This document shows positions 10,718 through 40,995 of a DNA stretch of 41,179 nucleotides, piece after piece (position 1 is the stretch's first letter; every line of letters begins with the position of its first letter). The stretch comes from Armatimonadota bacterium. GTDB lineage: Bacteria > Armatimonadota > Zipacnadia > UBA1398 > JAKPQA01. The stretch lies in the NCBI GenBank assembly GCA_029547025.1, contig JAKPQA010000141.1, positions 1-41,179 on the forward strand, in the 5' to 3' direction. Below the pieces are notes generated by a model. That model had not been told where the DNA came from. It saw nothing but the letters and a program-made list of their open reading frames with translations, and did no database searches. The translations under genes were made by a program, and so were the position numbers.

Positions 10718-10820
10718 CGCGCTGACGCGGCGCGTGAGGATCAGCCCGCAGGTCTCAATGGGCCCCTGCTTGAAGTGGGCACAGACGCGGAACACCACGT
10801 TCGGAGCGGAAGGACTCTCC

Positions 10821-11795
10821 ATGGCACGTCCGGCCACCCGACAGCTCCTGCAGGGCCTGGGGTTCTGCTCGCCCTCGATCATCGGCCTCGCGGCCCTGAT
10901 GGCCTACCCGATGGCCGCGTCGCTGTACTACAGCTTCTGCAACTACAGCGTGCTCCGGCCGGCGCGTTTCATCGGCACGGCCAACTACCGCCATCTGCTG
11001 ACGGAAGACGAGCTGTTCCGGACCGCCCTCTACAACACCGCGGTGTACGCCGTCTGGGCGGTTCCGCTGGGCATCGTCTTCGCCTTCGTGCTCGCCCTGT
11101 TGCTGAACGTGAAAGTCCGCGGCATGGCCTTCTACCGGACGATATTCTTCATCCCATCCATCGTGCCGTTGGTGGCGAGTTCGGTGCTGTGGATCTGGCT
11201 GCTGAACCCGCAGATTGGAGGCATCAACTTCCTGCTCGACCGGATCGGAGTCGACGGTCTGCTGACTCGGTTCGCAGAGACGGCGCCGGCCACGGCGAGA
11301 TGGCTCGGATTCGAGGGCGGCCGGCTGCCCGGCTGGCTGTCGGACCCGCAATGGGCCAAGCGGGGCATCATCCTGTGGAGCATCTGGGGCGTGGGCGGAT
11401 CGGTGGTCATCTACCTGGCAGGCTTGCAGGGCGTGCCGAAGGAGCTCTATGAGGCCGCCGAAGTGGACGGTGCCGGAGCCTGGCACCGGGTCCGCCACAT
11501 TACCGTGCCCTTCATGACACCCTACCTGTTCTTCACCCTGGTAATGGGGCTCATTGGAGCGTTCCAGTTCTTCACCCCGGCCTATGTCATGACGAACGGC
11601 CAGGGCGGACCGGTGGACTCAACCACCTTTTACTCGCTCTACCTGTTCAACGTGGCCTTCGCCGACTTCAAGATGGGCTATGCCTCGGCCATGGCGTGGA
11701 TTCTGTTCGCCATCATCGTCGTAGGAACCGTGCTGGTGTTCAAGACATCGGCCCGGTTCGTCTACTACGGCGAAGGCGCTGGGGAGGGTCGCTGA
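10821..11795 (+). CDS. Carbohydrate ABC transporter permease, MalF/UgpA-type
   Basis: 324 residues from ATG 10821, preceded by GGAAGGAC; an in-frame GTG at 10734 lacks support. Six membrane segments are visible (about 12-32, 72-96, 105-127, 182-202, 233-255, 288-308). The EAA loop is EAAEVDGAGAWHRVRHITVP (211-230), the site that docks the ATPase. This is a CUT1-family sugar permease. A 50-residue hydrophilic insertion (about 130-180) between membrane spans is longer than in many homologues. It is followed with a one-base overlap (TGATG) by the partner permease. No solute-binding protein or ATPase gene is adjacent. Confidence 0.92.
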   Translation: MARPATRQLLQGLGFCSPSIIGLAALMAYPMAASLYYSFCNYSVLRPARFIGTANYRHLLTEDELFRTALYNTAVYAVWAVPLGIVFAFVLALLLNVKVRGMAFYRTIFFIPSIVPLVASSVLWIWLLNPQIGGINFLLDRIGVDGLLTRFAETAPATARWLGFEGGRLPGWLSDPQWAKRGIILWSIWGVGGSVVIYLAGLQGVPKELYEAAEVDGAGAWHRVRHITVPFMTPYLFFTLVMGLIGAFQFFTPAYVMTNGQGGPVDSTTFYSLYLFNVAFADFKMGYASAMAWILFAIIVVGTVLVFKTSARFVYYGEGAGEGR

Positions 11796-12652
11796 TGGAA
11801 GAGGGTGGCCGAACCCAGCCCCTGTGGCTCCGCATGGTGGCCCACCTGGGGCTGGTGGTGTTCAGCGCGATCTTCTGCGTGCCGTTCCTCTGGCTGGTCT
11901 CGCGGTCGCTGATGACCAACGACCAGATCATGCAGGAGCCGCACTCGCTGATGGATCTGATCCCGGCGCCGGTGCGCCTGGCGAACTACCCCGACGCGCT
12001 GGCATTCAAGGGCTTCCACTTCACGACGTACCTGACCAACACGCTGATCATCTGCGCCCTGACCGTGTTCGGCACGATCCTGTCATGCTCCCTGGTGGCC
12101 TACGGTCTGTCGCGCATCTACTGGCGTGGCCGCAACGTCGTGTTCTACATCCTGCTGGGCACGATGATGCTGCCCGCCCAGGTGACGATGATCCCGGTCT
12201 TCGTGGTGTTCGCCAAGCTGAGGCTGGTGGATACATTCGTCCCGCTGATCCTGCCCGCGTTCCTTGGGAACGCGTTCTTCGTGTTCCTGCTTCGGCAGTT
12301 CTTCCTCGGGATCCCGCGCGACCTCACGGACGCGGCCCGGCTCGATGGCTGCACCGAGTTCGGCATCTGGCGGCAGGTGGTCATCCCGCTCTCGAAGCCG
12401 GCGCTGGCCACCGTGGGTCTCTTCTCGTTCATGGGCGCCTGGAATGACTACCTCGGCCCGCTCATCTACCTCTCGGACTCGTCCAAGTTCACTCTGTCCC
12501 TCGGCCTGGCGAGCTTCTCGAGTCAGTATGGCCAGGAGCCGGGGATGCTCATGGCGGCCACGACGGTGATGACCGTGCCCATCATCGTGCTGTTCTTCTT
12601 CGCCCAGCGGACGTTCATCCAGGGCATCACGCTGACGGGTCTGAAGGGGTAG
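11795..12652 (+). CDS. Carbohydrate ABC transporter permease, MalG/LacG-type
   Basis: 285 residues. The ATG overlaps the stop of the MalF-type gene by one base (TGATG), with GGGGAGGG upstream, so translation is coupled. Six membrane spans include about 17-37, 80-104, 115-140, 150-171, 201-221 and 251-270. The EAA-type loop DAARLDGCTEFGIWRQVVIP is at 179-198. CUT1 permeases work as a heterodimer with the preceding subunit. The ATPase and binding protein must be encoded elsewhere, as with shared MsmX/MalK-type ATPases. The GH123-type enzyme 110 bp downstream suggests import of sugars released by that enzyme, which is inference. Confidence 0.92.
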   Translation: MEEGGRTQPLWLRMVAHLGLVVFSAIFCVPFLWLVSRSLMTNDQIMQEPHSLMDLIPAPVRLANYPDALAFKGFHFTTYLTNTLIICALTVFGTILSCSLVAYGLSRIYWRGRNVVFYILLGTMMLPAQVTMIPVFVVFAKLRLVDTFVPLILPAFLGNAFFVFLLRQFFLGIPRDLTDAARLDGCTEFGIWRQVVIPLSKPALATVGLFSFMGAWNDYLGPLIYLSDSSKFTLSLGLASFSSQYGQEPGMLMAATTVMTVPIIVLFFFAQRTFIQGITLTGLKG

Positions 12653-12762
12653 CAGGGGTCAGGGGCCATCCCGGTTCTCCGCCGCTGTGGTAATCTGCGT
12701 GGCGTGAGGGTCTTGCTGGCGAGCGGCGTCGCGACTCAGAACACTCCGGAGGTGCCCGATCC

Positions 12763-24200: not shown

Positions 24201-25713
24201 CCTCGAATGCATCACGGAGCGACACGGCCGGCGGGACCACGTACTGCCCCGGAGACGCGGCAAGTCGCGCGACTCTCTTGAGCGGCGCCGACGGGTCGCA
24301 CAGGCCGATCTGCGCGGGCGAAGTCACCAGACCATCACCGGGCTGCCCGTCGCTGGTGTTGATCTGATGCCGCGGAGGGCTCTCGATGGCGACCACATCA
24401 TCGAACCACGCGGTGCCGGAAGCGCGATAGATCCCACACTGCAGTTCAACGCGTGTCGCGCCACCCGCCGCCCGGAAGCCGTAAGTGTGGCGAGCCCAGT
24501 CGGTTGTCCCGCGCACATGGCAGATGTCATGGAAATCCACCAGCTTGCCGTCCTCGCCATACTGGTAGACGGCGAGGTACGCGAAGCCGTCGCCCTCAAT
24601 GGATGCCGTGCGGAGCCAACCCACAACCAGGTAGTCTTGCCCGGTCTTGGGCGTGAATGAGCAGCGCCACATCGAATGCCCCGCGGGCTGACCGGGCTCC
24701 ATCTGGACTCGAGCACACCTCTGGCCCGACCGGGCCCCCTGTGCGACACGTGTTGCGTTGCCGTCGGCGGCCTCCCAGGTCGAGCGCGCGTCCTGCTCAA
24801 ACCCGGGGTCGGGCACCAGGCCACCCTGTCCGGCCAGGCCCTCCTGAAGCCGTCTGTCCCGCCACTCGGACGCGGCGATCCAGCCGGCCCCATCTCTCAC
24901 GAGCGGGCGCTGGAATGGGTAGCCGCCTGTGGTCAGCAGATCACCCCCACCATGGAGGAAGGCGACCAGGTTGCGTCGGGCCTCGGCGGGGAAGGTCTGG
25001 CCCGTCGGCACCACCAGCAGGGCCTGCCGGTCCGGCGAGAGCTGGCCGGGGCTGCTGAGTTGATCTGCCGTGAGGGCTTCTACCTCGATCCCGGCCGCCT
25101 GTAGCAGCTCGGCCAGATACGCGGGATCCGACGGTGCGCCATAGGTGGGAAATGCAGGATCAGTCAGAATCGCCACCCTGGGGGGCAACCCGGGTTGCTC
25201 CCGCGCCACCTCGACCGGGTCGGCAGCATCCATACCCGGGGTCAGCACGGCGTCGTCGAAGTAGGCGACACCCGAAGCATTGAAAAAGCCCAGGCGCATG
25301 GAGACGATGTCCGCCAGTGGGTTGGCGCGGAACGAGAAGCTCTGCCGCGTCCAGCCTCCCGGTTCCGTGAGTTGAGCGAAATCACGGAACTCCACAAGAG
25401 CGCCATCGAGGCTGTACTGGTAGACCGCGGCGAACGCGAAACCACCGGGAGCACTTGGCGTCACCTGCTCGACCTTCATCCACACCGAGCAGGTGTAATC
25501 ACCCCCTGGCGCAGCGAGCACGACGTCTTGGGAGCAGACGCCCCGTTCGACACGGAGGCAGCGCCCCCTGCGCCCGGCATCCGAGACCGCGCTGCCGACC
25601 GAGAGCGACCACCCCTCAGTCACCTCCAGCGTGCCGTTGCGCAGGAATTGGAGCGGCTGCGCGCCCGCCGCGGAGCCAACAGCGGCAAGACAGAGGAGGA
25701 CGAAGGGATTCAA
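21262..25713 (-). CDS. Giant secreted GH-A/GH42-like protein with duplicated carbohydrate-binding domains
   Basis: 1483 residues from TTG 25713, with GGGGGT eight bases upstream and a signal peptide (NPFVLLCLAAVGSAAGAQ). Order: jelly-roll domain (about 20-160); Rossmann-like domain starting PRVAILTDPAFPTYG (about 178-270); a second jelly roll similar to the first (about 297-445, shared VYQYxxDGxLVxF); a beta domain (about 590-690); a GH-A TIM barrel (about 700-1065, LNGRPVFLCGTDTYGNIYN); a GATase-like domain (about 1070-1250); and a C-terminal beta domain. The nucleophile-type Glu978 (SLGEFG) is present. The acid/base site reads YLNGD (826-828), lacking the usual Asn-Glu. GH42/GH-A enzymes cleave beta-galactosides and related bonds. 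Substrate is unknown and catalysis uncertain. Confidence 0.78.
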   Translation of the reverse strand: MNPFVLLCLAAVGSAAGAQPLQFLRNGTLEVTEGWSLSVGSAVSDAGRRGRCLRVERGVCSQDVVLAAPGGDYTCSVWMKVEQVTPSAPGGFAFAAVYQYSLDGALVEFRDFAQLTEPGGWTRQSFSFRANPLADIVSMRLGFFNASGVAYFDDAVLTPGMDAADPVEVAREQPGLPPRVAILTDPAFPTYGAPSDPAYLAELLQAAGIEVEALTADQLSSPGQLSPDRQALLVVPTGQTFPAEARRNLVAFLHGGGDLLTTGGYPFQRPLVRDGAGWIAASEWRDRRLQEGLAGQGGLVPDPGFEQDARSTWEAADGNATRVAQGARSGQRCARVQMEPGQPAGHSMWRCSFTPKTGQDYLVVGWLRTASIEGDGFAYLAVYQYGEDGKLVDFHDICHVRGTTDWARHTYGFRAAGGATRVELQCGIYRASGTAWFDDVVAIESPPRHQINTSDGQPGDGLVTSPAQIGLCDPSAPLKRVARLAASPGQYVVPPAVSLRDAFEGYMATGVTGDDQARWVPLLYAYDRLGRPRGAAGALLIHYAGLYAGSTWACFSVESRDVFARGDRTMGETFVRTVRHMLRGLFLTHLKPEPASVSDGEAVVIYAGVRNGGTATQTARLRFVFVGEDGLTPFATEERTVELGPGADERVQARVSPERYPGAFCTVRCELSTAEEPVDLMEAGWVVRRADALAAGPRLGFAANYFTLNGRPVFLCGTDTYGNIYNLAQANPLTWRRDVRRCQDYGLSVYENLNFWPKDFRYSDTELRNLDAIAQLTQQHQQVFMSGLLIGGDVACDDATFEKQKEMCRSFARRYQDTPGLIYYLNGDLTLSHKAADELAVRWREYLRSLYGTHEALQAAWGAERAGASFEQVPFPLPASQEWADVATADFIRFETTQTDHWLTGLHRAIREVDPDAITTAEFYPAPSGGVDIAAGIGELSVSNIGYFDMPGRDIERLPGAIGFADMRAKGKSVSLGEFGVKMHPAWTFENGAVGYHLVRTEQEARDLWLILSHYALGLGASKIQNWCLDDASERVFPWGLFYPNDLVPKDVALTYRNIGLLFRLLTPKYEPPRVTVLLPDRHRLGPQSGRIHDAIWRTFATLTSLRIRYNTLNEGALDVLPAATRVLVYPVPYCLDDATYSRLLAFVRQGGALYVSGDVSYGPDRTRTQTGRLRELVGMAFGEELYPNIGYDAAAPKASAPTGSGQALGLVPFAAAAGIRFGELATGAGGPPEVLQVTQDGEHIPVVVARGLGKGRVFFVNDPVELRTDLADDVLRSIHAAFATYAEVDRLQIEPDVPDVHVFRVPVEGAEEVVVAVNRGEARTVRLALGTHRVELALARAGTGMIWLDSEGRAVAVEAQGEVQVDGRRVADLPCNAAVAALDGHGLLESSSVLILPFGEGVLRVESSRDWRDRVVEVGDFEDGQWRPLESLECYTQPHLNVVLDGDQAASLLFVGERGELEASRRRLSALVQRPDLSLASP

Positions 25714-25844
25714 GGAAGAGACCCCCTGAAGCCCGCCGGATCGTGTCCGCGGGCAGTCTGGTGGACGAGTTCGTCCCATGCGTTGGATCCCCCTGGCCCA
25801 GGCAGCGAGGGAGTTCCGGCCGAACGGGGCGGAATGGAGTGCCG

Positions 25845-26303
25845 ATGACTCGAGACGAGTTGCTGGCCATTTACAGCCGCATCCCCACCGAGTCCACGTG
25901 CCGCGACTGCCACGAATGCGCCATTCGCTGTAGCGGGGCGATCCCGTTGGCCCGAAGCGAATGGGAGGGGATCGCGGCCTATATCGAGACACATATGTCC
26001 GATCTCGAGTTCGAGAGCCTCCTGGCGCAGGACAAGCGCTTCGAGGTCGCTGATGGAGTCTGGGAGGAGTTCTGTATACTCTATGACGTGGTCGCCCTGC
26101 GCTGCGCCGTGTACCCGGTTCGGCCACTCGTGTGCCGGCTGCTGGGGCACGTCGAGTTCATGCCATGCCCCCTCAGCCGTGTGCCCAGCGTCCTGCCGGA
26201 TGGCCCCGAGATCATGAGGCGCTATGCCCAGCTCGAGCGGAAGACTGTGGCGGAGTGGCTGGCGGGGGAACCCCGCCGTGGCTGTGGGCCGAGAGGAGCC
26301 TGA
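25845..26303 (+). CDS. YkgJ-type Cys-cluster (zinc/iron-chelating) protein
   Basis: 152 residues from ATG 25845, with GGAG five bases upstream. Eight cysteines are arranged as Cys19, 22, 25, 29, 77, 87, 97 and 108 (STCRDCHECAIRCSG ... CILY ... LRCAVYPVRPLVCRLLG ... MPCPL). The CR-x-Y-x-x-RP-x-x-CR type second half is characteristic of the YkgJ family, thought to bind Zn or an Fe-S cluster. It is soluble and cytoplasmic; function is unknown, and homologues have been linked to flagellar methylation and to redox chemistry. It is followed after 2 bp by the RatA-like gene. It is divergent from the giant glycosidase, and the 131 bp between the starts shows no clear promoter pair. Confidence 0.75.
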   Translation: MTRDELLAIYSRIPTESTCRDCHECAIRCSGAIPLARSEWEGIAAYIETHMSDLEFESLLAQDKRFEVADGVWEEFCILYDVVALRCAVYPVRPLVCRLLGHVEFMPCPLSRVPSVLPDGPEIMRRYAQLERKTVAEWLAGEPRRGCGPRGA

Positions 26304-30856: not shown

Positions 30857-32041
30857 GTGTCTCGCCGTCGTGGGTTGTGCGTGTTCGTCGTCCTCGTGTT
30901 CGCCGGCCTGGCCCTGACGCCCAGCGCCCGAGCGGCCGACATCGCTCGTTGGCGCCAGAAGTATCCGCTCGAGAAGGAAGTCGAGATCGGCCGCAAGACA
31001 GCCGAGGAGATCGACCGCCAGTACGGTGTCCTCGACGACCCCGAGCAACTGGCGCGAATCCAGGCCATCGTCAATGAGATCGTGGCCGTATCCGACCGGC
31101 CGGACCTCCAGTGCGATGTGAAGATCCTCAGTGTCCCCGTACCCAACGCGATGGCAATCCCGGGTGGCTTCATTCGCTGTACTTCGGGGCTGCTGGATAT
31201 GTGCAACTCGGACGACGAGCTCGCCGCGGTGCTGGCGCACGAGATCGCTCACATGTGCAACTACCATGGCATGAGGCAGGACGAGCGCGACCGCAAGATG
31301 GGCATCTACCAGCTCGGGCTGCAACTGGCGGCCATCGTGGCTGCGCTCAATGGCGCCGATCCCGGCTTCGTGCAGTACGCCGTCGCCGCCGGGTACTTCG
31401 CGCACATGCAGATCATTGTGGGCTACAGCCGCGAGTACGAAGTCGAGGCCGATCGCGACGGCCTGGCCTACCTCATGAAGACCAAGTACAACCCCACGGG
31501 CATGCTGACGACCATGGAGCGCTTCGCCGATCTGGCCACGCGGACGTGGCAGGGCTCCGACGCGCTCCGGGACTTCGACACCCATCCCCCCTCAGCCGCG
31601 CGTGTCGCCGAAGTCGAACGCTATCTGCGGGAAGCCAATGTGAATATCAACCGGGCCGTCGTCCTCCGAGGCTATCGTGCCGTGCCCGAGGAGATCGAGT
31701 ACGCCCCGGGCCAGCGAACCTGGCAGATCTGCTTCGGCGGGAGGCCGGTCTTCCAGGCCAGCCCCGAACCCATCGACGGAAAGACGGCTGAAGAACGCGT
31801 CCACGCTATCGCCACCAGCATGAACATGGTGATCTCCGTCAGTGGCCTCGCCATCCACACCGTCGGCCTCTCGGACCGGAAGGGGTACCCCGAGATCAGC
31901 TTCAGCCAGTACCCCGTGCTGAGGATTCTGGAGCAGGATGCCGCCTTCATGGGCATGGACGCCAAAGCCTACGCCTCACTGGTCCGCGAGCAGCTCATCT
32001 ACGCACTCGACCAGGCGGGGCGTGAGGCGCTGCGGACCTAA
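30857..32041 (+). CDS. Secreted/periplasmic M48 family zinc metalloprotease
   Basis: 394 residues from GTG 30857, with GGAGGGG six bases upstream. The signal peptide is positively charged then hydrophobic (MSRRRGLCVFVVLVFAGLAL, cleavage near Ala26). The peptidase domain has the metal motif AHEIAH (His128-Glu129-x2-His132) and a downstream ExEAD box (Glu195-x-Glu197-Ala-Asp199) supplying the third ligand, as in BepA/LoiP-type M48 proteases. The N-terminal YPLEKEVEIGRKTAEEIDRQYGVLDDP is also family-like. These proteases degrade misfolded outer-membrane proteins. The C-terminal 130 residues include a predicted beta-sandwich of unknown role. Its stop overlaps by three bases with the stop of the convergent GT4 gene. 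Confidence 0.88.
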   Translation: MSRRRGLCVFVVLVFAGLALTPSARAADIARWRQKYPLEKEVEIGRKTAEEIDRQYGVLDDPEQLARIQAIVNEIVAVSDRPDLQCDVKILSVPVPNAMAIPGGFIRCTSGLLDMCNSDDELAAVLAHEIAHMCNYHGMRQDERDRKMGIYQLGLQLAAIVAALNGADPGFVQYAVAAGYFAHMQIIVGYSREYEVEADRDGLAYLMKTKYNPTGMLTTMERFADLATRTWQGSDALRDFDTHPPSAARVAEVERYLREANVNINRAVVLRGYRAVPEEIEYAPGQRTWQICFGGRPVFQASPEPIDGKTAEERVHAIATSMNMVISVSGLAIHTVGLSDRKGYPEISFSQYPVLRILEQDAAFMGMDAKAYASLVREQLIYALDQAGREALRT

Positions 32042-33300
32042 CGGACGCTCGCCACGACGCCATCCCAGAGCGCCTCGTAGCGCTTCGCGATCTGCGTGAT
32101 CTCCATATCGCGCATGACGCGACGCCGGAGCGTGTCGGGCGCGTCGGGATCCACGAGCTCCTCGAGCTCGTCGTCACCTACGTTGTAGTGTGTCTGCGAG
32201 ATGCGTGCCCGCACCACGCCGTGAAGGCCCTCGCCGAGCAGGCTGAGATCCACCATGTCCGAACTGAGCCCGGGCCCCGTACCCTCGACCACGGCCAGGA
32301 GCCGGTCGGCCAAGGCGGCCGTGTCACCCGCCGGGTAGAAGGTCACGCTGGGATCGCCTGCGGCCATGCGCTGATGGGGCTCGATGGCCGTCGCGATGAC
32401 CGGTGCTCCCGCGGCCGCCGCCTCCAGGAGCTCCCAAGGGAACAAGGTCTCATGGCTCGGCAACACCACGACATCCAGTGCGTGATAGATGCGACTCCGG
32501 TCGATGCGGAGGCCCAAGAAGCGCGTGTTGCCCAGGATTCCCGACTGATGGGCATAGTGCTCCATGGCCGCCGAGTCACGGCCGGAGCCGACGATGACGA
32601 ACTCGACCAAAGGCACGCGGCGGGCCACCCGCGCGGCGGCTTCGAGGAAGTCCGCCCAGCCCGACCGCCGGTCGTCAAACTGGCCCACGAGTCCCAGGTG
32701 GAGGGTATACGGGTTCAGCCCCAGTTCCGCCATCAGCATCTCGGCCACGGCAGAAGGCACAAACTCGCGCTTGTCCAGGCCACCGGGGATCTGAGTCGCA
32801 CGATTTCGCAGTCCACGAGGTAGCGCATCGAGACTCAAGGCGGCCAGGGCAGAAGCGCGCCAGATCTGCCGGCGGTTCTGCCAGTGATCGGGCACGGGAG
32901 ACAGCACCGACATCGTCCACGGGACTCGGTAGCGCCGCGCCAACGCCTCGGCCCACGCAGCGGCCGCGAAACCATGCGCGTGGACGAGCTGGGGGGCGAG
33001 GTCACCCAGCTCCGCCACCGCCTGGGCCATGGCACGCCGATCATGGCGGCGGCGGCCTGTGAGACGAACGGCCGCCGTGCGCGCCTTCAGACGAGCCGTA
33101 CGACGCAGCAGGGCCCGATTGGTGTCAGAGATCACGGCCTGTGACCGGCCCAGCCCCGACCGGCGGACCACCGCCTCGCAGAGCTCGGTGACAAACTGCT
33201 GATCACGCAGGCTCTCGCCAAATGCCAAATGCAGGATGCTCGGAACGGCACTCACACCCATGCCATGCGCAAACGGCCCCACAGGGCTCGCCAGGCCCAT
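32038..33300 (-). CDS. GT4-family glycosyltransferase
   Basis: About 420 residues. The start is uncertain: ATG 33300 is chosen because upstream sequence lacks homology, but Met or Val codons just inside (MGVSAVPSILHLAFG) are equally possible, and no good Shine-Dalgarno is seen. It is a GT-B fold: the N-terminal half carries LVHAHGFAAAAWAEALARRY, the C-terminal half carries GLVGQFDDRRSGWADFLEAA, EFVIVGSGRDS and SRIYHALDVVVLPSHETLFP. The GT4 nucleotide-sugar motif E-x7-E reads HETLFPWELLEAAAAGAPVI. It probably transfers a sugar to a lipid-linked or cell-surface glycan; donor and acceptor are unknown. A strong hairpin separates it from the oxidoreductase gene. Confidence 0.85.
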   Translation of the reverse strand: MGLASPVGPFAHGMGVSAVPSILHLAFGESLRDQQFVTELCEAVVRRSGLGRSQAVISDTNRALLRRTARLKARTAAVRLTGRRRHDRRAMAQAVAELGDLAPQLVHAHGFAAAAWAEALARRYRVPWTMSVLSPVPDHWQNRRQIWRASALAALSLDALPRGLRNRATQIPGGLDKREFVPSAVAEMLMAELGLNPYTLHLGLVGQFDDRRSGWADFLEAAARVARRVPLVEFVIVGSGRDSAAMEHYAHQSGILGNTRFLGLRIDRSRIYHALDVVVLPSHETLFPWELLEAAAAGAPVIATAIEPHQRMAAGDPSVTFYPAGDTAALADRLLAVVEGTGPGLSSDMVDLSLLGEGLHGVVRARISQTHYNVGDDELEELVDPDAPDTLRRRVMRDMEITQIAKRYEALWDGVVASVR

Positions 33301-33348
33301 TGTAGGAGAACCCGGGCGCAGGGGGGGCCGGACTCTCAGCATGGGGCT

Positions 33349-33374
33349 CAGAGGGCCGCCCAGGCGGCCCTCTG
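33349..33374 (-). terminator. 11-12 bp GC-rich hairpin after the Gfo/Idh/MocA gene
   Basis: CAGAGGGCCGC (33349-33359) pairs with GCGGCCCTCTG (33364-33374) with a four-base loop (CCAG), starting 13 bases after the stop of the oxidoreductase gene on the minus strand. There is no U tract. It resembles the hairpin at 19813-19846. Confidence 0.6.
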
Positions 33375-33387
33375 CAGCCATCTCGCC

Positions 33388-34401
33388 CTAGAGCGGCAGG
33401 TCGATGGGGCGTCTCTCCGCGATGGACCGATACGCGGCCTCCGCCAACTCCACCGCCGCCCGCCCGTCGCTACCGGGGACGGCGACGGGTGTATCACTGA
33501 GAACCGCCTCCACAAAGAGCCGCACCTCATGTTGCACGGCCGGCTCGACCTCAATGTCGCCGATCTTCTGGGCCTTGACCTCGTCCCCACCCTCGACGCC
33601 GTAACGGATGTAGGCATCGCTCGAGAACCCGTTCTCGATGAAGAACGTGCCCTTCGAGCACTGCACTCGCCCCGTGTAGGCACCCATCCCCGCGTGGCAC
33701 AAGCTACTCGAGTGAAGCCAGCCCACCGCGCCGCTCTTGAACGTGATGCTGGCGAAGACCAAGTCCTCGTAGTCCTGTTCGTCGCAGATGTAGTTGCCGC
33801 CGACCGCATAGACGCGGGCGGCGTCGCCGGCCAGGCAGCGCATGAAGTCCAACTCGTGAGCGTTGATCTCCATCAGGTTCCCGCCCGACTCGGCTCGCCG
33901 GAGACGCCACGGCACGCCGTAGTCCCCGCCCCAGCGGCCACCGATCCGCTCGATGCTAATGGCCAACACGTCACCGTACGCGCCGGACCCGATCTGGTCC
34001 CGGAGCCAATGGAACGCCGGGATGTACCGGAGGACCTGCGCCACCATGAGCTGAGTGCCGGCCCGGTCGGCGGCCGCGATCATGGCGTTGCAGTCGGCCA
34101 CGGTGGGTGCCATCGGCTTCTCGCACAGCACATGCTTGCCCGACGCAACGGCGCACTCGACCATGGGCCGGTGCATGAAAGGCGGGGAGGCAACGATCAC
34201 CGCATCGACGCCTGCCTCGGCGACCAGCCTCCCATAGTCCGTGTAGACATCCGCGGCAAACTTGTCGCCCGCCTCACGCGCCCGCGCCTCGTCGGTATCG
34301 CACACGGCGGCGATGGTCGAGTTCGGCAGTTCGTGACAGGGCGTGGCCAGGGACAAACCCATGCCACCGCACCCGAGCAGTCCAACCTTCAGCTGCGCCA
34401 T
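33388..34401 (-). CDS. Gfo/Idh/MocA family NAD(P)-dependent oxidoreductase
   Basis: 337 residues from ATG 34401. The N-terminal Rossmann fold has GLLGCGGMG (8-16) and an Asp after strand 2 (AVCDTDEA) suited to NAD(H). The family's catalytic Lys is in HVLCEKPMAPT (Glu94-Lys95-Pro96). The C-terminal alpha/beta domain begins near 125 and includes GGNLMEINAHELDFMRCLAG, with a His suited to substrate binding. Members oxidise or reduce sugars, inositols and amino-sugars, and can also act as glycosidases by transient redox. It lies 83 bp downstream of the second GH-A giant gene and probably belongs to that operon; a hairpin follows the stop. The substrate is unknown. Confidence 0.88.
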   Translation of the reverse strand: MAQLKVGLLGCGGMGLSLATPCHELPNSTIAAVCDTDEARAREAGDKFAADVYTDYGRLVAEAGVDAVIVASPPFMHRPMVECAVASGKHVLCEKPMAPTVADCNAMIAAADRAGTQLMVAQVLRYIPAFHWLRDQIGSGAYGDVLAISIERIGGRWGGDYGVPWRLRRAESGGNLMEINAHELDFMRCLAGDAARVYAVGGNYICDEQDYEDLVFASITFKSGAVGWLHSSSLCHAGMGAYTGRVQCSKGTFFIENGFSSDAYIRYGVEGGDEVKAQKIGDIEVEPAVQHEVRLFVEAVLSDTPVAVPGSDGRAAVELAEAAYRSIAERRPIDLPL

Positions 34402-34484: not shown

Positions 34485-37400
34485 TCACGGCTCGCGCCAG
34501 CGCAGACCAGGTGTCTTTCCCTCATCGACGGCGCGCCAGAACGCGTCCTTCACATCCGCGTACAGGCCCTGGATGCCGTTGGCGTGCTTGTACCGGTCGA
34601 TCTCGATCCAGGCGTCGGGCCGCGGGATTGGGCGGGCCGCCTTCATCCGCTCTGCGTAGTCGTGGATGGCGTGAGTCGACGGCCGCCATGTCCGGTCCGG
34701 GTTCAGAATCCCGTAGTCACTGTTCTCGCCGTAGCGGAAACCTCCAGGGAACCACCAACAGACGGTCCCATTGGCACCGGACTTCAGCACCATCTCGTAG
34801 AAGTCACGGTAGAACTGGCCCTGGAACCCGAGCGCCTCAGGCTTGTCGCGCATCGCCTGCAGGTCCCAGACCGAGTAGCCAAACTCGGCCCACATGATCG
34901 GCAGTTCGGGATCACACGCCCGGGCGTAGGCCGCCTCGAACCAGCCCGGTTTGACGGCCTCCCAGTCGCCGATCCGGCCATAGCCCTCGGGGGCGAATAT
35001 GTCCACCGCGCCCGCGAGGGCCTGGAGGTCGTAGGGCATCCATCCCTGACCGCAGGTTGGGTTCCCCGCCTCGGTCATGCGGAAGCTGACCAAGTGGTGT
35101 GGGTCCACCGACCGCACCAGGCGGCGGGCCTCAGCGTACTTGTCGTGAACTAGGCCATTGACGAACCGGCGGTAGTCCAGGACCATCGCCAGCCACTCAC
35201 CATCGGCGGCCACCTGCGTGTCACTGGGGCCGGTCACCTTCCCGTCTGCGTTGCGAGGGATGGGGAAACCCCAGGCCTTCTCGGCGGCCTCGACCGAGCC
35301 ATACCGCGCTTGTACCCACTGCTCCCACTGGGGGTCCCAGACCGACCGCGCGGCATAGGGCCCGAAAAACGGCTCCCAGGCCAGGTCGTAGGCGAACACA
35401 TCATCACACTCAGCCAGCTTGTGCTTCTCGATCAGCGCCCGCATCTCGTCCCATCGAAAGTCCATGGGGGTCCCCGGCCGCAGCGAGAGGTTTACCTTCA
35501 GCCCATGCCGCCGGCAGCGGGTGAGCAGATCCCACAGGTTCCTGGAATCGAGCGATCGGTAGTAGATGAACACGCTCACCATGTTCATCCCGATCTCCTC
35601 GCAGGCCGTCAGGTCCCACTCGATGATGTCGGGGTCATACGGCTGAGGGTCGAGGAAGAACTCGAAGTAGGGGCCGTCCTCGATGCCGACACCACTCGAC
35701 GGCATGTAGTTGACGCCGTGGGGGTACCACTGCTTCCCGTCGAGGATGAAGTCGCCGCCCTTGACCGTCACGAACTTCGCGGGAGCGTGCGGCCGCCATA
35801 GGGTGAGCGGGTGCTCGAGCCGGTCGGTGACGGCACCATCGCGTTCAAGTGTGACACGGACCCGATAATCGGCACCCTCGAGGATTCCCGGCTGCCAGGT
35901 CCAGTCAACGACCCGGCGATCCCCTGGCCTCACGTGGACCTGCGCGTCCCGGCTGAACAGAGGCGTCTCCGCCCTGGCTGAGAGCACCTCGACCCGGACG
36001 CGACAGCGCGCTTCGCCGCGGCCGAACCCCACGACCTGCGCCCCCAGGTGGATTGGCTCACCATCCTCGTAGACGTAGTACTGGCTCCCTCCCTCGTAGA
36101 GAAACACGCCATCGATCATTCGCTCAGCCAGACGGGCCAGCTCCCGGCTGACTCGCGGGTCACCGAAGTAGCCCGCATCCGGCGCGGGCATCGAGAGCCA
36201 GCAACCGCCGGCGAAGGGCTCGGCGCCGTTGATGATGAGCGCCGCGGCGAAACCCGCCAGCTCATCGCCGTTCCGAACCGCCCGCACCAGGGGAACGAAG
36301 CGCCAGCGGCGGCCCTTCTCGAAGCCAGTCCCCTGCGGTCTGGGATGAACCGCCTGGCAAGCCTCGGCCTCAGGAAGGCGCGCCAGCGACCAGATCACCT
36401 GCCGTGGATCCGCCCGCAACTCGTCGATGTCCACCGCCTCGTAGATCTTGTACAGGGGCGAGATGCCCTCGAGCTGCGGAGCCCTGGTCTCCGACACGAG
36501 GCGGCTGAGCTCAGCCGCCTCGGGGGTCATGGCAGCGGTGCCAATCTCATCGACCCAGACATCGTGGTCGCCCGTCGGTATGCCGGTGGTATGGGTGAAG
36601 GCGAGCCCGAGCACCAGCTTGGCCGCGTTCTCCGGCCGAAAGTGGTCGCCGGCGTCCCCTCGGCCGGGGCTGGCGCCGTCGTGCCAGTAGGCGAAGGCCG
36701 ACGCGGGTATGGCATAGGGCTTCCATTGGGTCGTGAGCGGCACCACGGCGATCCAGCGCGACCCATCCTTCTCGCGCCACTCGACCGACAGCTGGCTCGT
36801 GCGCTCTCCGCCCTTGGCCCAGAAGCATGTCAGATCGTGCCCCGGCCCAAACGGACCGTCGAGCACCGGCGTCGCGAAGGTGTCCCACCCCTTCAGGTCC
36901 CTGATGGCGATGTGGGCGCACCGGGCCGAACCCCGAGCCCCACCCGCCTCGACCACCACGGACGAGCCCTGGTCGCCATTGCTCTCGCGAGTCCATTCGG
37001 CCACCGAGCCGTTCTCGAAATCCGCGAAGGCGGGCCACTGGAGCGACTCGACCAACTGCCGCTGGACAGCCTCCTCGGGCACCCACTTCCCCTCGACCGG
37101 CCACAGCAGCGTCTCGAAAGCCGGCCCACCCAACACCATCAGGTGTCCCCTGGAATGGGCGAAAGCCGATACGGTCTCGAGGCAGGGCCCCGGGAACCGT
37201 CTTGGGTTGACGAGCACCAGCAGATCGAAGCGGTCGCGGGTCACCAGGAACGGGTTCGACATGGCCTCCACGGTCAACGTCGTCACCGACAGGCCACGCG
37301 CGGCCAGGGCCTCGACCAGAGCTGGCGAGACGTCATCGGCTGGGTCCGCCGCGAAAACGGCGATGTTCCCCCTCTCGGACGGCTTGTAGCCCAGCGCCCG

Positions 37401-37817
37401 GAGCTGGTCATCCACTCGCGCCGCCAGCTGTTCCAGCTTCTCCTGCTGCGCGGCAGAGATGACCTGGATCACGGGAGTGGACACAATGGGCGCCAAGGGC
37501 TGCCGCCAATCGTCACCGAGAAAAGCCGCGATACTGACGTCACGGTGCTCGACGGCCCTGGGAGTCTCGAAGGTGAACACATGCTCCCCCCGGCCCTCGA
37601 CCATCACTTCGTCGTGGACGAGCACCACGTTGGTGTGCGGGTCCTTGAGCTCGCCATTCAGCCGGGCCCGGCCCTGGGCCACGGAGTAGGTAACGGTCAC
37701 CTCGAACGACGCGCCCTCAACGAGTCGGGCCGGCAGTGGGCCGATCTGACACGTGGTATCCTGCGCACGAAGACCCGAGACTGCGAGCGCGGCGAGGAAC
37801 AGCGTGTGGCGGACCAT
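34485..37817 (-). CDS. Giant secreted GH-A glycoside hydrolase (GH5/GH42-like) with carbohydrate-binding modules
   Basis: 1110 residues from ATG 37817, with GGGAGG nine bases upstream. A signal peptide (HTLFLAALAVSGLRAQ) exports it. Order: Ig-like N-terminal domain (about 20-118); a GATase-like domain (about 150-240, GNIAVFAADPADD ... LLVLVNPRRFPG ... LMVLGGP); a CBM11-like jelly roll (about 264-428); more beta domains (about 575-675); and a TIM barrel (about 680-1060). The barrel has Glu815 (DLAWEP, acid/base) and Glu978 (MWAEFG, nucleophile), so both catalytic acids are in place, unlike in the 21262-25713 protein. The domain style resembles GH42/GH5 families that cleave beta-glycans. It is divergent from the alpha-mannosidase; the 250 bp between starts shows only weak promoter-like sequence. 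Confidence 0.82.
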   Translation of the reverse strand: MVRHTLFLAALAVSGLRAQDTTCQIGPLPARLVEGASFEVTVTYSVAQGRARLNGELKDPHTNVVLVHDEVMVEGRGEHVFTFETPRAVEHRDVSIAAFLGDDWRQPLAPIVSTPVIQVISAAQQEKLEQLAARVDDQLRALGYKPSERGNIAVFAADPADDVSPALVEALAARGLSVTTLTVEAMSNPFLVTRDRFDLLVLVNPRRFPGPCLETVSAFAHSRGHLMVLGGPAFETLLWPVEGKWVPEEAVQRQLVESLQWPAFADFENGSVAEWTRESNGDQGSSVVVEAGGARGSARCAHIAIRDLKGWDTFATPVLDGPFGPGHDLTCFWAKGGERTSQLSVEWREKDGSRWIAVVPLTTQWKPYAIPASAFAYWHDGASPGRGDAGDHFRPENAAKLVLGLAFTHTTGIPTGDHDVWVDEIGTAAMTPEAAELSRLVSETRAPQLEGISPLYKIYEAVDIDELRADPRQVIWSLARLPEAEACQAVHPRPQGTGFEKGRRWRFVPLVRAVRNGDELAGFAAALIINGAEPFAGGCWLSMPAPDAGYFGDPRVSRELARLAERMIDGVFLYEGGSQYYVYEDGEPIHLGAQVVGFGRGEARCRVRVEVLSARAETPLFSRDAQVHVRPGDRRVVDWTWQPGILEGADYRVRVTLERDGAVTDRLEHPLTLWRPHAPAKFVTVKGGDFILDGKQWYPHGVNYMPSSGVGIEDGPYFEFFLDPQPYDPDIIEWDLTACEEIGMNMVSVFIYYRSLDSRNLWDLLTRCRRHGLKVNLSLRPGTPMDFRWDEMRALIEKHKLAECDDVFAYDLAWEPFFGPYAARSVWDPQWEQWVQARYGSVEAAEKAWGFPIPRNADGKVTGPSDTQVAADGEWLAMVLDYRRFVNGLVHDKYAEARRLVRSVDPHHLVSFRMTEAGNPTCGQGWMPYDLQALAGAVDIFAPEGYGRIGDWEAVKPGWFEAAYARACDPELPIMWAEFGYSVWDLQAMRDKPEALGFQGQFYRDFYEMVLKSGANGTVCWWFPGGFRYGENSDYGILNPDRTWRPSTHAIHDYAERMKAARPIPRPDAWIEIDRYKHANGIQGLYADVKDAFWRAVDEGKTPGLRWREP

Positions 37818-38067
37818 GGGGTTCGACCTCCCTACGCGTGCCAGTGGGATCGAACAGTCAACGGGACGGCAGCGGCCCCGTGCCGGCGTCAGCCGCGCCG
37901 CCCACCGGGCCGTCCGAGGCACGAAGCTTGGCCCCCGTGCCCCTCTCTCGCTTATTCGCCCGCGACGCCGGAAGGCCTACGCAACCCGGCGGACGAGGTG
38001 GCTGGCGGTTCGCGCGGAAGAACACAAAGACCCATCGTCTGAGCGCCACACAGAGGGAGACCCCGTT

Positions 38068-40995
38068 GTGACACCACAAGCCGAACTCGAAGCCCTGCGC
38101 GCCTCCATTCCAGACCTGGAGGCCGCATACCGACGCCCCCTGGAGCGCATTCTTGCCGAAATCGACTTCGCTGCCCGAATGGCCGACGCCCAACCCGACA
38201 ACAGCCCCAAGTGGTGGCCGCTGATCACACAAGCCGCCCGGCTGGTCGCTGAAGGCGTGCGGTCGGGCCGCACCGACCTGCCCGCACTCGTGTCCGAAGC
38301 CGAGGCCATTCTCTCCCCCCTGGGCCCCGCGGCTAAGGAGTACGCGGTGTACTGCTGCGGCCACGCACACATCGACATGAACTGGATGTGGACCTGGCCC
38401 GAGACCGTATCGGTCACCTATGACACATTCTCTACCATGGACCAGCTCATGGACGAGTTCCCCGAGTTCCACTTCACCCAGAGCCAGGCATCGGTCTATG
38501 TCGCCATGCAGGAGTACGCCCCCGAGCTCTTCGAGCGCATCAAGAAGCGCGTGGCCGAGGGCCGCTGGGAGGTGGCGGCCAGCCAGTGGGTCGAGGGCTC
38601 GAAGAACCTGGCCTCAGGCGAGATCCTGTGCCGTCATCTGCTGTACACGCGCCGCTGGCTGCGAGACGCCCTGGGGCTACCTTTCGATGCCGTCAAGATC
38701 GACTGGGAGCCCGATACCTTCGGCCACTGCTGGACGCTGCCCGGCATACTCACTCGCGGCGGCGTGACGCGCTACTACCATCACCGTGCATCGGGCGAGC
38801 GGCTCCGGGCCATGTGCAGCGGCGAGTCCTCGCAGCTCTTCTGGTGGGAGGGCAAGGACGGATCCCGCGTCCTGGCCTTCGATGACTCGCCCAACGGCTA
38901 CAACAACGAGATCGTGCCGCGGATGACCCATCTGCTGTTTGCCCTCGAGCGCCACACGGGCCTCAAGTCCATCCTCTGGGTCTATGGCGTGGGCGACCAC
39001 GGCGGCGGCCCCACCCGGCGTCACCTGCGCGCCGCCCAAGACATGGCCCAGTGGCCCATCTGGCCCCGGGTGAAGCTCACCACCACCGATGCCTACTTCA
39101 CCGACGTCGAGCGCGAGATCGCACAGCGCGACATCCAACTCCCGGTGCACGCCGACGAACTCAACTTCGTGTTCGAGGGCTGCTATACGTCGGTCAGCCG
39201 CATCAAGTTCGCCAACCGTCAGGGCGAGAACGACTTGGTCGACACCGAAGTGGTGGCGCTCGCCGGTCACCGGTTGGCCGGGCTGCCGTACCCGAGCCAG
39301 ACGCTAACCGAGTGCTGGCGGCGGTCCATGTTCATCCAGTTCCACGACATCCTCCCGGGCTCGGGCGTGCTCGAGACCCGCGAGCACGCCATGGGGCTTT
39401 TCCAGGAGAACCTGGCGAACACGGGCATGGTCCGCTCGCGGGCGCTCCGGGCCATCGCACAGCGGGTCAACACCCGGGCCGTGGCTCCCGCGAGGAGCCC
39501 GGAGGGCGCCGACCAGGGCCTCGGCGCAGGCGTGGGAAACGGGGCATGGTGGGGATCGGTCTCCGCCGTCGGCGCCGGCGCCTGCGGGGGCGATCCCTTC
39601 GTGGTGTTCAACCCGTGCGCATTCCCGCGCGACGAGCTGGTCACACTCAAGGTCTGGAACCGGGAACTGCCCGACGGGGAGGTCACGGTCCGCGACGCGC
39701 AGGGCCACACCACCCCCGGCCAGGTGATCGATCGCGGCCACTACTGGGGCCACCAGTTCACCACCATCGCCTTCCCGGCTCGGGATTTGCCCGCCATGGG
39801 GTACCGCGCGTACGTCGTTGACCGCCAACGACCGCCCCAGGGCGAGAGGGCCTGCTATGTGACGGAGGACGGCCGCGCCATCTATGGCTTGGGCTACGTT
39901 CACGCCCAGATGCTGGGTTCGGTCACCATGGGGAATGAGCTCCTCGAGATGGTCGTCAGCCCCAGCCATGGCGGCGTTATCAGCCTGATCGACAAGGCAA
40001 GCGGCACCGAGTTCGTGCCGCCAGGAGAGGTATTCGGGTGCATCGACCGAGAGCAAGAGGCACCCCACGGCATGACAGCCTGGCAGCTCGGAGCGATCAT
40101 CGAGCGCACGCGGCCGCTGGCGTTCTCCGTCATGACAGTGGTGCACCAGGGGCCGAACCTGGCGGCCGTGCGGCTCTCGGCGAAGCACGGCCAGTCGCAA
40201 TACGACCTGACGATCGCCCTCGCCACCGGGCAGCGGCGCGTGGACTTCGAGCTCACCGTGAACTGGCTCGAGCGCGGCGATCCGTCGACGGGAGTCCCGG
40301 CGCTCCGCGCGTCCTTCCCCGTCGCCATCGACGAGGGCCAGGCCACCTTCGAGATCCCCTTCGGGACTATCGAGCGGCCCACCGACGGCGAGGAGTCCCC
40401 CGCGCTCAACTGGGCCGACCTCAGCGGATCGGCGTGGGGCATCGGCGACGAGCCCGAAGAGAAGCTCGGGATCACATTACTCAACAACTGCAAATACGGC
40501 CACCAGGCCCACGACGATATGCTGCGGCTGACACTCATCCGCTCGAGCTACGATCCCGATCCGCTGCCCGAGCTCGGGCTGCATCGCATTGGCTACGCCA
40601 TCGTGCCCCATACGGGCCCGCTCGACCCCGGCTCGGCGGCCCGGGCGGGTTATGCGTTCAACCACCCATGCATCGCGGTCAGCACCACGGTTCACGAGGG
40701 AGAGCTTCCACCCGAAGCCACCGGCATCGAGACACTCACTCCTAATGTGCTTGTGGCGGCGGTCAAGAAGGCGGAGGACTCCGGGGCCACGATCATCCGG
40801 CTGTATGAGATCGAAGGCCGCAACACCGACGCACAGATTCGCCTGGCTCCAGAGCTCGTCGGGCCGACTACCACCGCCTCGCTGACCGACATCCTCGAGC
40901 AGCCTCTGCCCGGGGATGGCGCCAGCATCTGCGGCGGTGTGCTCACCGTGACGGTGCCGGCGTTCGGAATCGCGACGGTGAGGATCGGCGAGTAG
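38068..40995 (+). CDS. GH38 alpha-mannosidase
   Basis: 975 residues from GTG 38068, with GAGGGAGA about nine bases upstream; the open frame continues upstream without support. No signal peptide, so cytoplasmic. The GH38 catalytic domain (about 90-430) has the zinc site HAHIDMNW (His101, Asp103), the nucleophile Asp216 in WEPDTFGH and the second zinc His in QFHDILPGS (His426), as in class II alpha-mannosidases. VGDHGGGPT (308-316) is the family's glycine-rich loop. The C-terminal part (about 520-975) is the beta domain typical of GH38 (DPFVVFNPCAFPRDELVTL). It would remove alpha-mannose from imported oligosaccharides. The usual DPFGHS is replaced by PDTFGH. Confidence 0.9.
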   Translation: MTPQAELEALRASIPDLEAAYRRPLERILAEIDFAARMADAQPDNSPKWWPLITQAARLVAEGVRSGRTDLPALVSEAEAILSPLGPAAKEYAVYCCGHAHIDMNWMWTWPETVSVTYDTFSTMDQLMDEFPEFHFTQSQASVYVAMQEYAPELFERIKKRVAEGRWEVAASQWVEGSKNLASGEILCRHLLYTRRWLRDALGLPFDAVKIDWEPDTFGHCWTLPGILTRGGVTRYYHHRASGERLRAMCSGESSQLFWWEGKDGSRVLAFDDSPNGYNNEIVPRMTHLLFALERHTGLKSILWVYGVGDHGGGPTRRHLRAAQDMAQWPIWPRVKLTTTDAYFTDVEREIAQRDIQLPVHADELNFVFEGCYTSVSRIKFANRQGENDLVDTEVVALAGHRLAGLPYPSQTLTECWRRSMFIQFHDILPGSGVLETREHAMGLFQENLANTGMVRSRALRAIAQRVNTRAVAPARSPEGADQGLGAGVGNGAWWGSVSAVGAGACGGDPFVVFNPCAFPRDELVTLKVWNRELPDGEVTVRDAQGHTTPGQVIDRGHYWGHQFTTIAFPARDLPAMGYRAYVVDRQRPPQGERACYVTEDGRAIYGLGYVHAQMLGSVTMGNELLEMVVSPSHGGVISLIDKASGTEFVPPGEVFGCIDREQEAPHGMTAWQLGAIIERTRPLAFSVMTVVHQGPNLAAVRLSAKHGQSQYDLTIALATGQRRVDFELTVNWLERGDPSTGVPALRASFPVAIDEGQATFEIPFGTIERPTDGEESPALNWADLSGSAWGIGDEPEEKLGITLLNNCKYGHQAHDDMLRLTLIRSSYDPDPLPELGLHRIGYAIVPHTGPLDPGSAARAGYAFNHPCIAVSTTVHEGELPPEATGIETLTPNVLVAAVKKAEDSGATIIRLYEIEGRNTDAQIRLAPELVGPTTTASLTDILEQPLPGDGASICGGVLTVTVPAFGIATVRIGE

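Follow-up and report, generated by a model that had tools for sequence, protein, structure and literature searches.

A GH-A-like glycosidase gene and a GH38 alpha-mannosidase gene in an Armatimonadota genome: divergent neighbours that apparently do not form a conserved locus

A large, probably exported GH-A-like glycosidase and a GH38 alpha-mannosidase are encoded divergently in a draft Armatimonadota genome, and an initial annotation had proposed that, together with a Gfo/Idh/MocA oxidoreductase and a GT4 glycosyltransferase, they make up a single glycan-use locus. We find that the pair is not kept in relatives, and that the orthologues of the oxidoreductase and of the glycosyltransferase occur in other contexts, both of which tell against a four-gene locus. 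We favour, with a probability of roughly 60%, the reading that two carbohydrate genes with separate inheritance lie side by side here without forming a dedicated two-enzyme locus, the exported GH-A protein supplying an ABC importer and the cytosolic GH38 enzyme working independently. This weakens the plausible pathway claim that the secreted GH-A enzyme feeds the divergent GH38 enzyme. It also moves the focus to the GH-A protein itself, a member of a glycosidase family that is large, conserved and probably secreted, has an intact Glu pair and a rewritten -1 subsite, and is found in mostly uncultured phyla.

The window (the whole stretch of DNA analysed, 41,179 nucleotides) is an entire contig of a draft genome of 6.31 Mb in 369 contigs that is 96% complete (contig C156). 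The closest named relatives of the GH-A protein carry Armatimonadetes in their titles, and the nearest relatives of the genome are Armatimonadota. The ORF list and Pfam bear out that the GH-A and GH38 genes are real and divergent: the maximal ORFs span 34485-37922 on the minus strand and 37753-40995 on the plus strand, and their ends are exactly as first noted. By eye, the likely starts are the ATG at 37817 for GH-A, with GGGAGG upstream, and the GTG at 38068 for GH38, with GAGGGAG upstream, so that each has a purine-rich ribosome-binding site and the proteins are 1,110 and 975 residues long (Table 1). Because these starts shorten both genes, the two do not overlap but diverge from a 250-bp gap. 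Sigma-70 scans, with a consensus that may not fit the host phylum, found no promoter-like site in this gap. A shared operator was considered and rejected, as no inverted repeat in the gap is more than weak (77% over 13 nt; arms of 8-10 nt). Behind the GH-A gene on the same strand lie the oxidoreductase gene, after a gap of 83 bp, and then the GT4 gene, after 6 bp; both are real genes by Pfam, located outside the interval 34485-40995 to which the four-gene locus had been assigned.

Table 1. Features of the window discussed in the text, with the evidence on which each call is based.
Feature	Position	Strand	Basis
GH-A-like multidomain glycosidase, 1,110 aa, probably secreted	34485..37817	-	ORF; start and ribosome-binding site by eye; weak GH42 match; model
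Signal peptide-like N-terminus, residues 1-19	37761..37817	-	Translation by eye; low-confidence helix in model
CBM11-like beta-sandwich, residues 258-436	36510..37046	-	VIA-align to CtCBM11 6r3m
Catalytic (beta/alpha)8 barrel, residues 680-1110	34488..35780	-	VIA-align to GH5_18 9y4v; profile match to GH42
W814-E815, Trp and presumed acid/base Glu	35373..35378	-	52/52 sequences; aligned with GH42 N-E
E978, presumed nucleophile on beta7	34884..34886	-	51/51 non-gap alignment rows; position in model
Divergent intergenic gap, 250 bp	37818..38067	.	Start calls; promoter and repeat scans
GH38 alpha-mannosidase, Ams1-like, 975 aa, no signal peptide	38068..40995	+	Pfam; Ams1 6lz1 match; orthologue alignment
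Gfo/Idh/MocA oxidoreductase	33388..34401	-	Pfam; orthologues beside LarB-like genes
GT4 glycosyltransferase	32038..33381	-	Pfam; few relatives
Two sugar ABC permeases	10734..12652	+	Homologues (60-65%) adjoin GH-A in nearest relative

Conservation of the divergent pair, which the initial annotation had named as a check on its proposal, turned out against it. GH-A was absent from all 20 neighbourhoods of GH38 orthologues (each of 6.3-14 kb, some truncated where the contig stops), and GH38 was absent from all 20 neighbourhoods of the GH-A family, 19 of which come from relatives and one from a paralogue in the same genome. A further 80 GH-A loci, which overlap with the 20 in that several are the same contigs, included GH38 twice (L159 and L166, both times on the same strand), with 1.6 cases expected at this genome's density. 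A conserved divergent GH-A/GH38 pair, absent from all of these neighbourhoods, was therefore rejected. When orthologues were tallied by hand, the 13 relatives possessing both genes carried them on different contigs in every case; the thresholds of this tally (440 and 560 bits) were chosen after inspecting the match lists, and in some of these genomes, G027 among them, a gene is near the end of its contig, so that close linkage could still exist there. The available sequence of the genome holding the closest relative of the GH-A protein (L109, 57%) contains no GH38 match beyond E 5.4e-45 and 31%, and G001 and G002, genomes of the same order, have another gene divergent from GH-A (L113, L111). 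The largest clusters of neighbouring genes span 4 of the 20 loci (clustering at E <= 1e-15).

The two genes do tend to occur in the same genomes. Among 61 genomes, 14 have both orthologues, 11 have GH38 only, 7 have GH-A only and 29 have neither (Fisher P 0.0056, with no correction for relatedness or genome size). The window's own genome has a further GH-A-like gene next to a GH38 gene, on the same strand, on contig C362 (L228 4684-13278); two pairs within 10 kb compare with 0.25 expected (Poisson P 0.027), an expectation that uses 8 matches falling in six genes. Elsewhere, G039 encodes a more distant GH-A and a GH38 in tandem, 18 bp apart on the same strand (L229 295-6942), and G005 encodes a GH38 and a GH-A-like gene 5.5 kb apart on opposite strands (L230 310-13461). 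We read the co-occurrence, the recurring pairs and the count of oxidoreductases near GH38 (below) as a sign that catabolic genes are loosely associated in genomes rich in glycan functions, within which a weak functional tie is possible.

The genes behind GH-A have histories of their own. Relatives of the oxidoreductase at E <= 1e-40 are present, one or two each, in 42 of the 61 genomes, the window's own included. We fetched 29 of the 46 matching loci outside this genome (L199-L227, about 4 kb each): none has GH-A, GH38 or GT4 beside the oxidoreductase, 15 have a LarB-like gene downstream and 11 have a xylose-isomerase-like TIM-barrel gene upstream. One LarB-like and one TIM-barrel gene were scanned with Pfam, and the former proved to be of the AIR carboxylase type, which we take to be LarB. 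Such a set of oxidoreductase, LarB-like and TIM-barrel genes hints at a pathway for sugar acids that uses a nickel cofactor derived from LarB. In the window's own genome the LarB-like gene is on contig C116, away from the oxidoreductase. Matches to the GT4 protein at E <= 1e-20 occur in 5 of the 61 genomes, again including this one, and the four other GT4 loci, when fetched, contained no match to the window's oxidoreductase.

We rejected the oxidoreductase as a partner of GH-A because the genome contains 82 Gfo/Idh/MocA domain matches and the counts near GH-A (1 of 20 and 11 of 80 loci) do not exceed the 3.3 and 13.3 expected. Gfo-type oxidoreductases are nonetheless enriched near GH38, in 9 of 20 loci (L069-L088) against 2.2 expected at this genome's density (P 0.0004, or 0.03 should relatives have twice that density), and these are mostly not one orthologous gene, the largest cluster spanning 4 of the 20. 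What stands of the association first proposed is thus a loose tie between GH38 and Gfo-type oxidoreductases, whereas the window's own oxidoreductase has its orthologues in other contexts.

Judged by its sequence, the plus-strand gene certainly encodes a member of the GH38 family. All of the GH38 models in Pfam score above their cut-offs (38N 200 bits, middle 58, C 107 and C2 37), and the best solved match is fungal Ams1 (6lz1, E 7.6e-70), with which the H-x-H-x-D, W-x-PDTFG and FHDxLPGS motifs align. H99, H101, D103, D216, H426 and D427 are invariant in an alignment of orthologues (n=10), and presumably have catalytic and zinc roles. The protein thus shares with Ams1-type GH38 enzymes the sequence match, all of the GH38 domains and the aligned His/Asp motifs; it differs in being bacterial and in having a shorter N-terminal part, and its translation shows no signal peptide by eye. 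The genome has 10 matches to the GH38 N-domain. Full-length orthologues of 57-68% identity are found in at least 15 genomes of the class, in surroundings that vary, some adjoining what look by eye like housekeeping genes. We suggest that the enzyme would be a cytosolic, Ams1-like exo-alpha-mannosidase that serves mannose-containing oligosaccharides generally, its linkage and activity being predicted from the family.

For the minus-strand gene, the initial assignment to clan GH-A stands by its predicted structure, while its sequence matches are weak. The whole protein scores 21.3 bits with the Pfam GH42 model, whose cut-off is 21 (23.8 bits for the barrel alone), and 30 of 50 family members match the same model at E <= 0.01. 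In a profile search of the PDB with the barrel, GH42 beta-galactosidases were nearest (E 1.6e-6); the protein had no match in an NCBIfam search and no meaningful match in a single-sequence search of the PDB. An AlphaFold2 model built from 52 sequences (pLDDT 92.3, pTM 0.89), together with its fold matches, confirmed a (beta/alpha)8 barrel. When the model was compared by VIA-align, the first 13 barrel rows were GH5_18-type exo-beta-1,4-mannosidases (Z 28.3-29.9, 326-333 residues, 3.1-3.6 A), comprising GH5_18 entries, BlMan5B and the C. acnes enzyme, with the GH5_18 structure 9y4v at the top (Z 29.9, 331 aligned, 3.2 A); we assume that BlMan5B is itself a GH5_18 member. The remaining barrel rows shown (Z 25.8-27.2) were GH5, GH2 and GH164. 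Foldseek instead placed GH2 beta-glucuronidases in its top rows (E 1.2e-18), with an rmsd of about 20 A over many domains; we set these aside; VIA-align favoured GH5_18.

The VIA-align rows covered mainly the barrel and residues 258-441, and barely touched residues 20-250 and 440-680. Residues 258-436 resemble CBM11 (Z 17.7, 162 aligned, 3.1 A to CtCBM11 6r3m). Residues 148-658 also match a human oligosaccharyltransferase chain, 6s7t_G, which we take to be probably OST48 (Z 13.0, 266 aligned, 8.7 A rmsd); perhaps the two proteins have an alpha/beta domain and a beta-sandwich domain arranged in the same order. The N-terminus looks by eye like a signal peptide, and the protein is probably exported. 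With no such start in GH38, this agrees with the original placement of a secreted GH-A and a cytoplasmic GH38 enzyme.

The two presumed catalytic residues are kept throughout the family, E815 on beta4 in 52 of 52 sequences and E978 on beta7 in all 51 non-gap sequences. Their surroundings are not those of the enzymes compared. An Asn directly before the acid/base Glu is usual, but not universal, in clan GH-A; here the residue aligned with the Asn of the GH42 N-E is a Trp (W814) in all 52 sequences. The position of the beta2 Arg of GH5_18, as placed by a weak alignment (E 0.1-0.2), is a Ser (S748) in 47 of 50. Such Asn and Arg residues usually hold the 2-OH of the -1 sugar and orient the nucleophile. 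R913, E944, Y946, W1021, R1028 and E1031 are kept in 50 of 50 family sequences. Of the six active-site residues that PMC8233224 gives as common to five exo-beta-mannosidases, both Glu and probably the beta8 Trp (W1021, by position only) are retained in the GH-A protein; the Asn and the Arg are replaced, and the His was not located. The fold leans towards the mannosidases of GH5, but with this active site that specificity is not assignable. Because active-site residues differ, we adopted neither beta-mannosidase nor beta-galactosidase as a name for the protein.

A peptide-pattern scan with two patterns returned 142 encoded relatives, of which 80 were kept. The titles of GH-A relatives include Armatimonadetes, Planctomycetota, Hydrogenedentota, Verrucomicrobiota, Kiritimatiellota and Omnitrophota. 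These proteins constitute a widespread and apparently uncharacterised glycosidase family whose active site is unusual. The literature that we found does not name the family, which may nevertheless have an existing CAZy family number. We put forward tentatively, at somewhat less than even odds, that it is an undescribed GH family of Armatimonadota, Planctomycetota, Hydrogenedentota, Verrucomicrobiota and Omnitrophota, in which the Trp and Ser replacements accommodate an unusual 2-position of the sugar or reflect a rebuilt -1 subsite. The window also encodes a second GH42-like protein (21262-26127, minus strand; 1,621 aa, with a DUF4350 domain), which by eye has N-G-D where N-E is expected and may be altered too.

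Each of the known families closest to the GH-A protein shares part of its design. GH5_18 exo-beta-1,4-mannosidases (6gvb, 7lr6, 9y4v) provide the best fold match to the barrel, whose start is also weakly similar in sequence to GH5_18/BlMan5B (E 0.096-0.55), and they too have GH38 as a gene neighbour; they differ by the Asn-to-Trp and beta2 Arg-to-Ser replacements, and identity in the structural alignments is 13-19%. The C. acnes GH5_18 enzyme, as described in PMC6160142 and PMC8233224, is single-domain and predicted to be cytoplasmic, whereas GH-A is multidomain and probably exported; the same papers have the Asn before the acid/base residue in their GH5_18 and GH5 examples. GH42 beta-galactosidases are the sequence family that reaches significance (Pfam, PDB profile), but GH-A has W-E in place of N-E and ends with the barrel at residue 1110, with no trimerisation domain after it (some GH-A relatives are longer at the C-terminus). 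The GH164 and Op5Man5 beta-mannosidases match the barrel over 336-363 residues (Z 25.8-26.8) and differ in being homotrimers with a domain B after the barrel and, for Op5Man5, in an Asn before the acid/base residue (PMC8233224). A CBM-like domain ahead of the barrel is shared with the GH50 agarase/beta-1,3-glucanase, and GH50 entries match residues 260-441 (Z 12.1-14.4); no GH50 sequence match was listed, however, and GH50 has Asn before the acid/base residue (PMC11079163).

The likeness to GH5_18 suggests a mannoglycan or N-glycan locus, in which a beta-mannosidase-like GH-A would work with GH38 on the Man-beta1,4-GlcNAc core or on mannan. Such a locus has a precedent: in Cutibacterium and Bifidobacterium, a GH38/GH5_18 pair accompanied by ABC transport genes is known to form an N-glycan locus (PMC6160142). 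The barrel's first 13 fold matches and the renewed proximity of GH38 and GH-A at L228, L229 and L230 fit this idea. We nevertheless consider it unlikely. Only the Glu pair and probably the beta8 Trp remain of the six exo-beta-mannosidase residues (PMC8233224), and the C. acnes pair is predicted to be cytoplasmic (PMC6160142), whereas GH-A here looks exported. Moreover, relatives do not retain the pair, the CBM11-like module points to beta-glucan over mannan, and the nearest solved structures by sequence profile are beta-galactosidases of GH42. The replacement of two active-site residues through nearly the whole family could alternatively mean that the protein is a scaffold or lectin with a dead barrel and no glycosidase at all, but the complete conservation of both catalytic Glu (52/52 and 51/51) and of six further residues (50/50) is not the pattern of a dead enzyme, and we regard this as highly improbable.

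The arrangement in the window could also be recent and peculiar to this lineage, with GH-A, the oxidoreductase and GT4 in one operon under joint regulation with GH38. Three genes in one direction, 83 and 6 bp apart, and a 250-bp divergent gap are what one would expect of such a unit, and the superfamily oxidoreductases near 9 of 20 GH38 orthologues are in keeping with it. It seems to us rather unlikely all the same, given that this gene order was found in no examined locus, that the gap has no promoter-like site and only weak inverted repeats, that the orthologues of the oxidoreductase belong to another gene set, and that GT4 matches at E <= 1e-20 are confined to 5 of the 61 genomes, own included.

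On our preferred reading, that of two separately inherited neighbours, the GH-A protein, whose N-terminus looks by eye like a signal peptide, would be exported, may bind a polysaccharide with its CBM11-like module, as the fold of that module suggests, and would hydrolyse a beta-linked glycan by a two-glutamate retaining mechanism, as the barrel and the conserved Glu pair would predict. The released oligosaccharides probably enter by an ABC importer, to judge from gene neighbours in close relatives, with the importer genes scattered in this genome. The oxidoreductase belongs to a group that elsewhere often accompanies LarB-like and TIM-barrel genes.

The original suggestion of uptake without a SusC/SusD system holds as far as SusD, for which alone we searched: the SusD-like family PF07980 had no match in the whole genome (the control was positive in Bacteroides). 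ABC-type uptake, the route offered in its place, is plausible given the permeases in the window, a pair that the initial annotation had passed over. At L109, the locus of the closest GH-A relative, genes for an ABC binding protein and two permeases come after GH-A in the same orientation. At L111 and L113, a different binding protein-like gene and permeases, the latter on the strand of GH-A, lie downstream of it, the binding proteins being only about 25% identical to that of L109, and at L097 and L172 permeases lie upstream of GH-A on the same strand. ABC permeases are present in 4 of the 20 GH-A loci, against 0.7 expected (P 0.005), and in 4 of the 80 further loci, against 2.7 expected, so the permease link is a pattern of close relatives and not of the GH-A family; overall, we regard the link of GH-A to ABC import as modest. 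The first permease of L109 best matches the product of window positions 10734-11795 (65%; next 53%), the second has 63% identity with its counterpart, the window's second permease, and the binding protein best matches one on contig C116 (59%; next 34%). The best-matching permeases are thus about 22 kb from GH-A in the window, and the best-matching binding protein is on another contig. The two sugar permease genes, which have no binding protein gene beside them that we could find, are followed by a GH123-like gene (together 10734-15261, plus strand), and a phosphodiester-glycosidase (NAGPA) gene lies next to these on the opposite strand (15266-17383).
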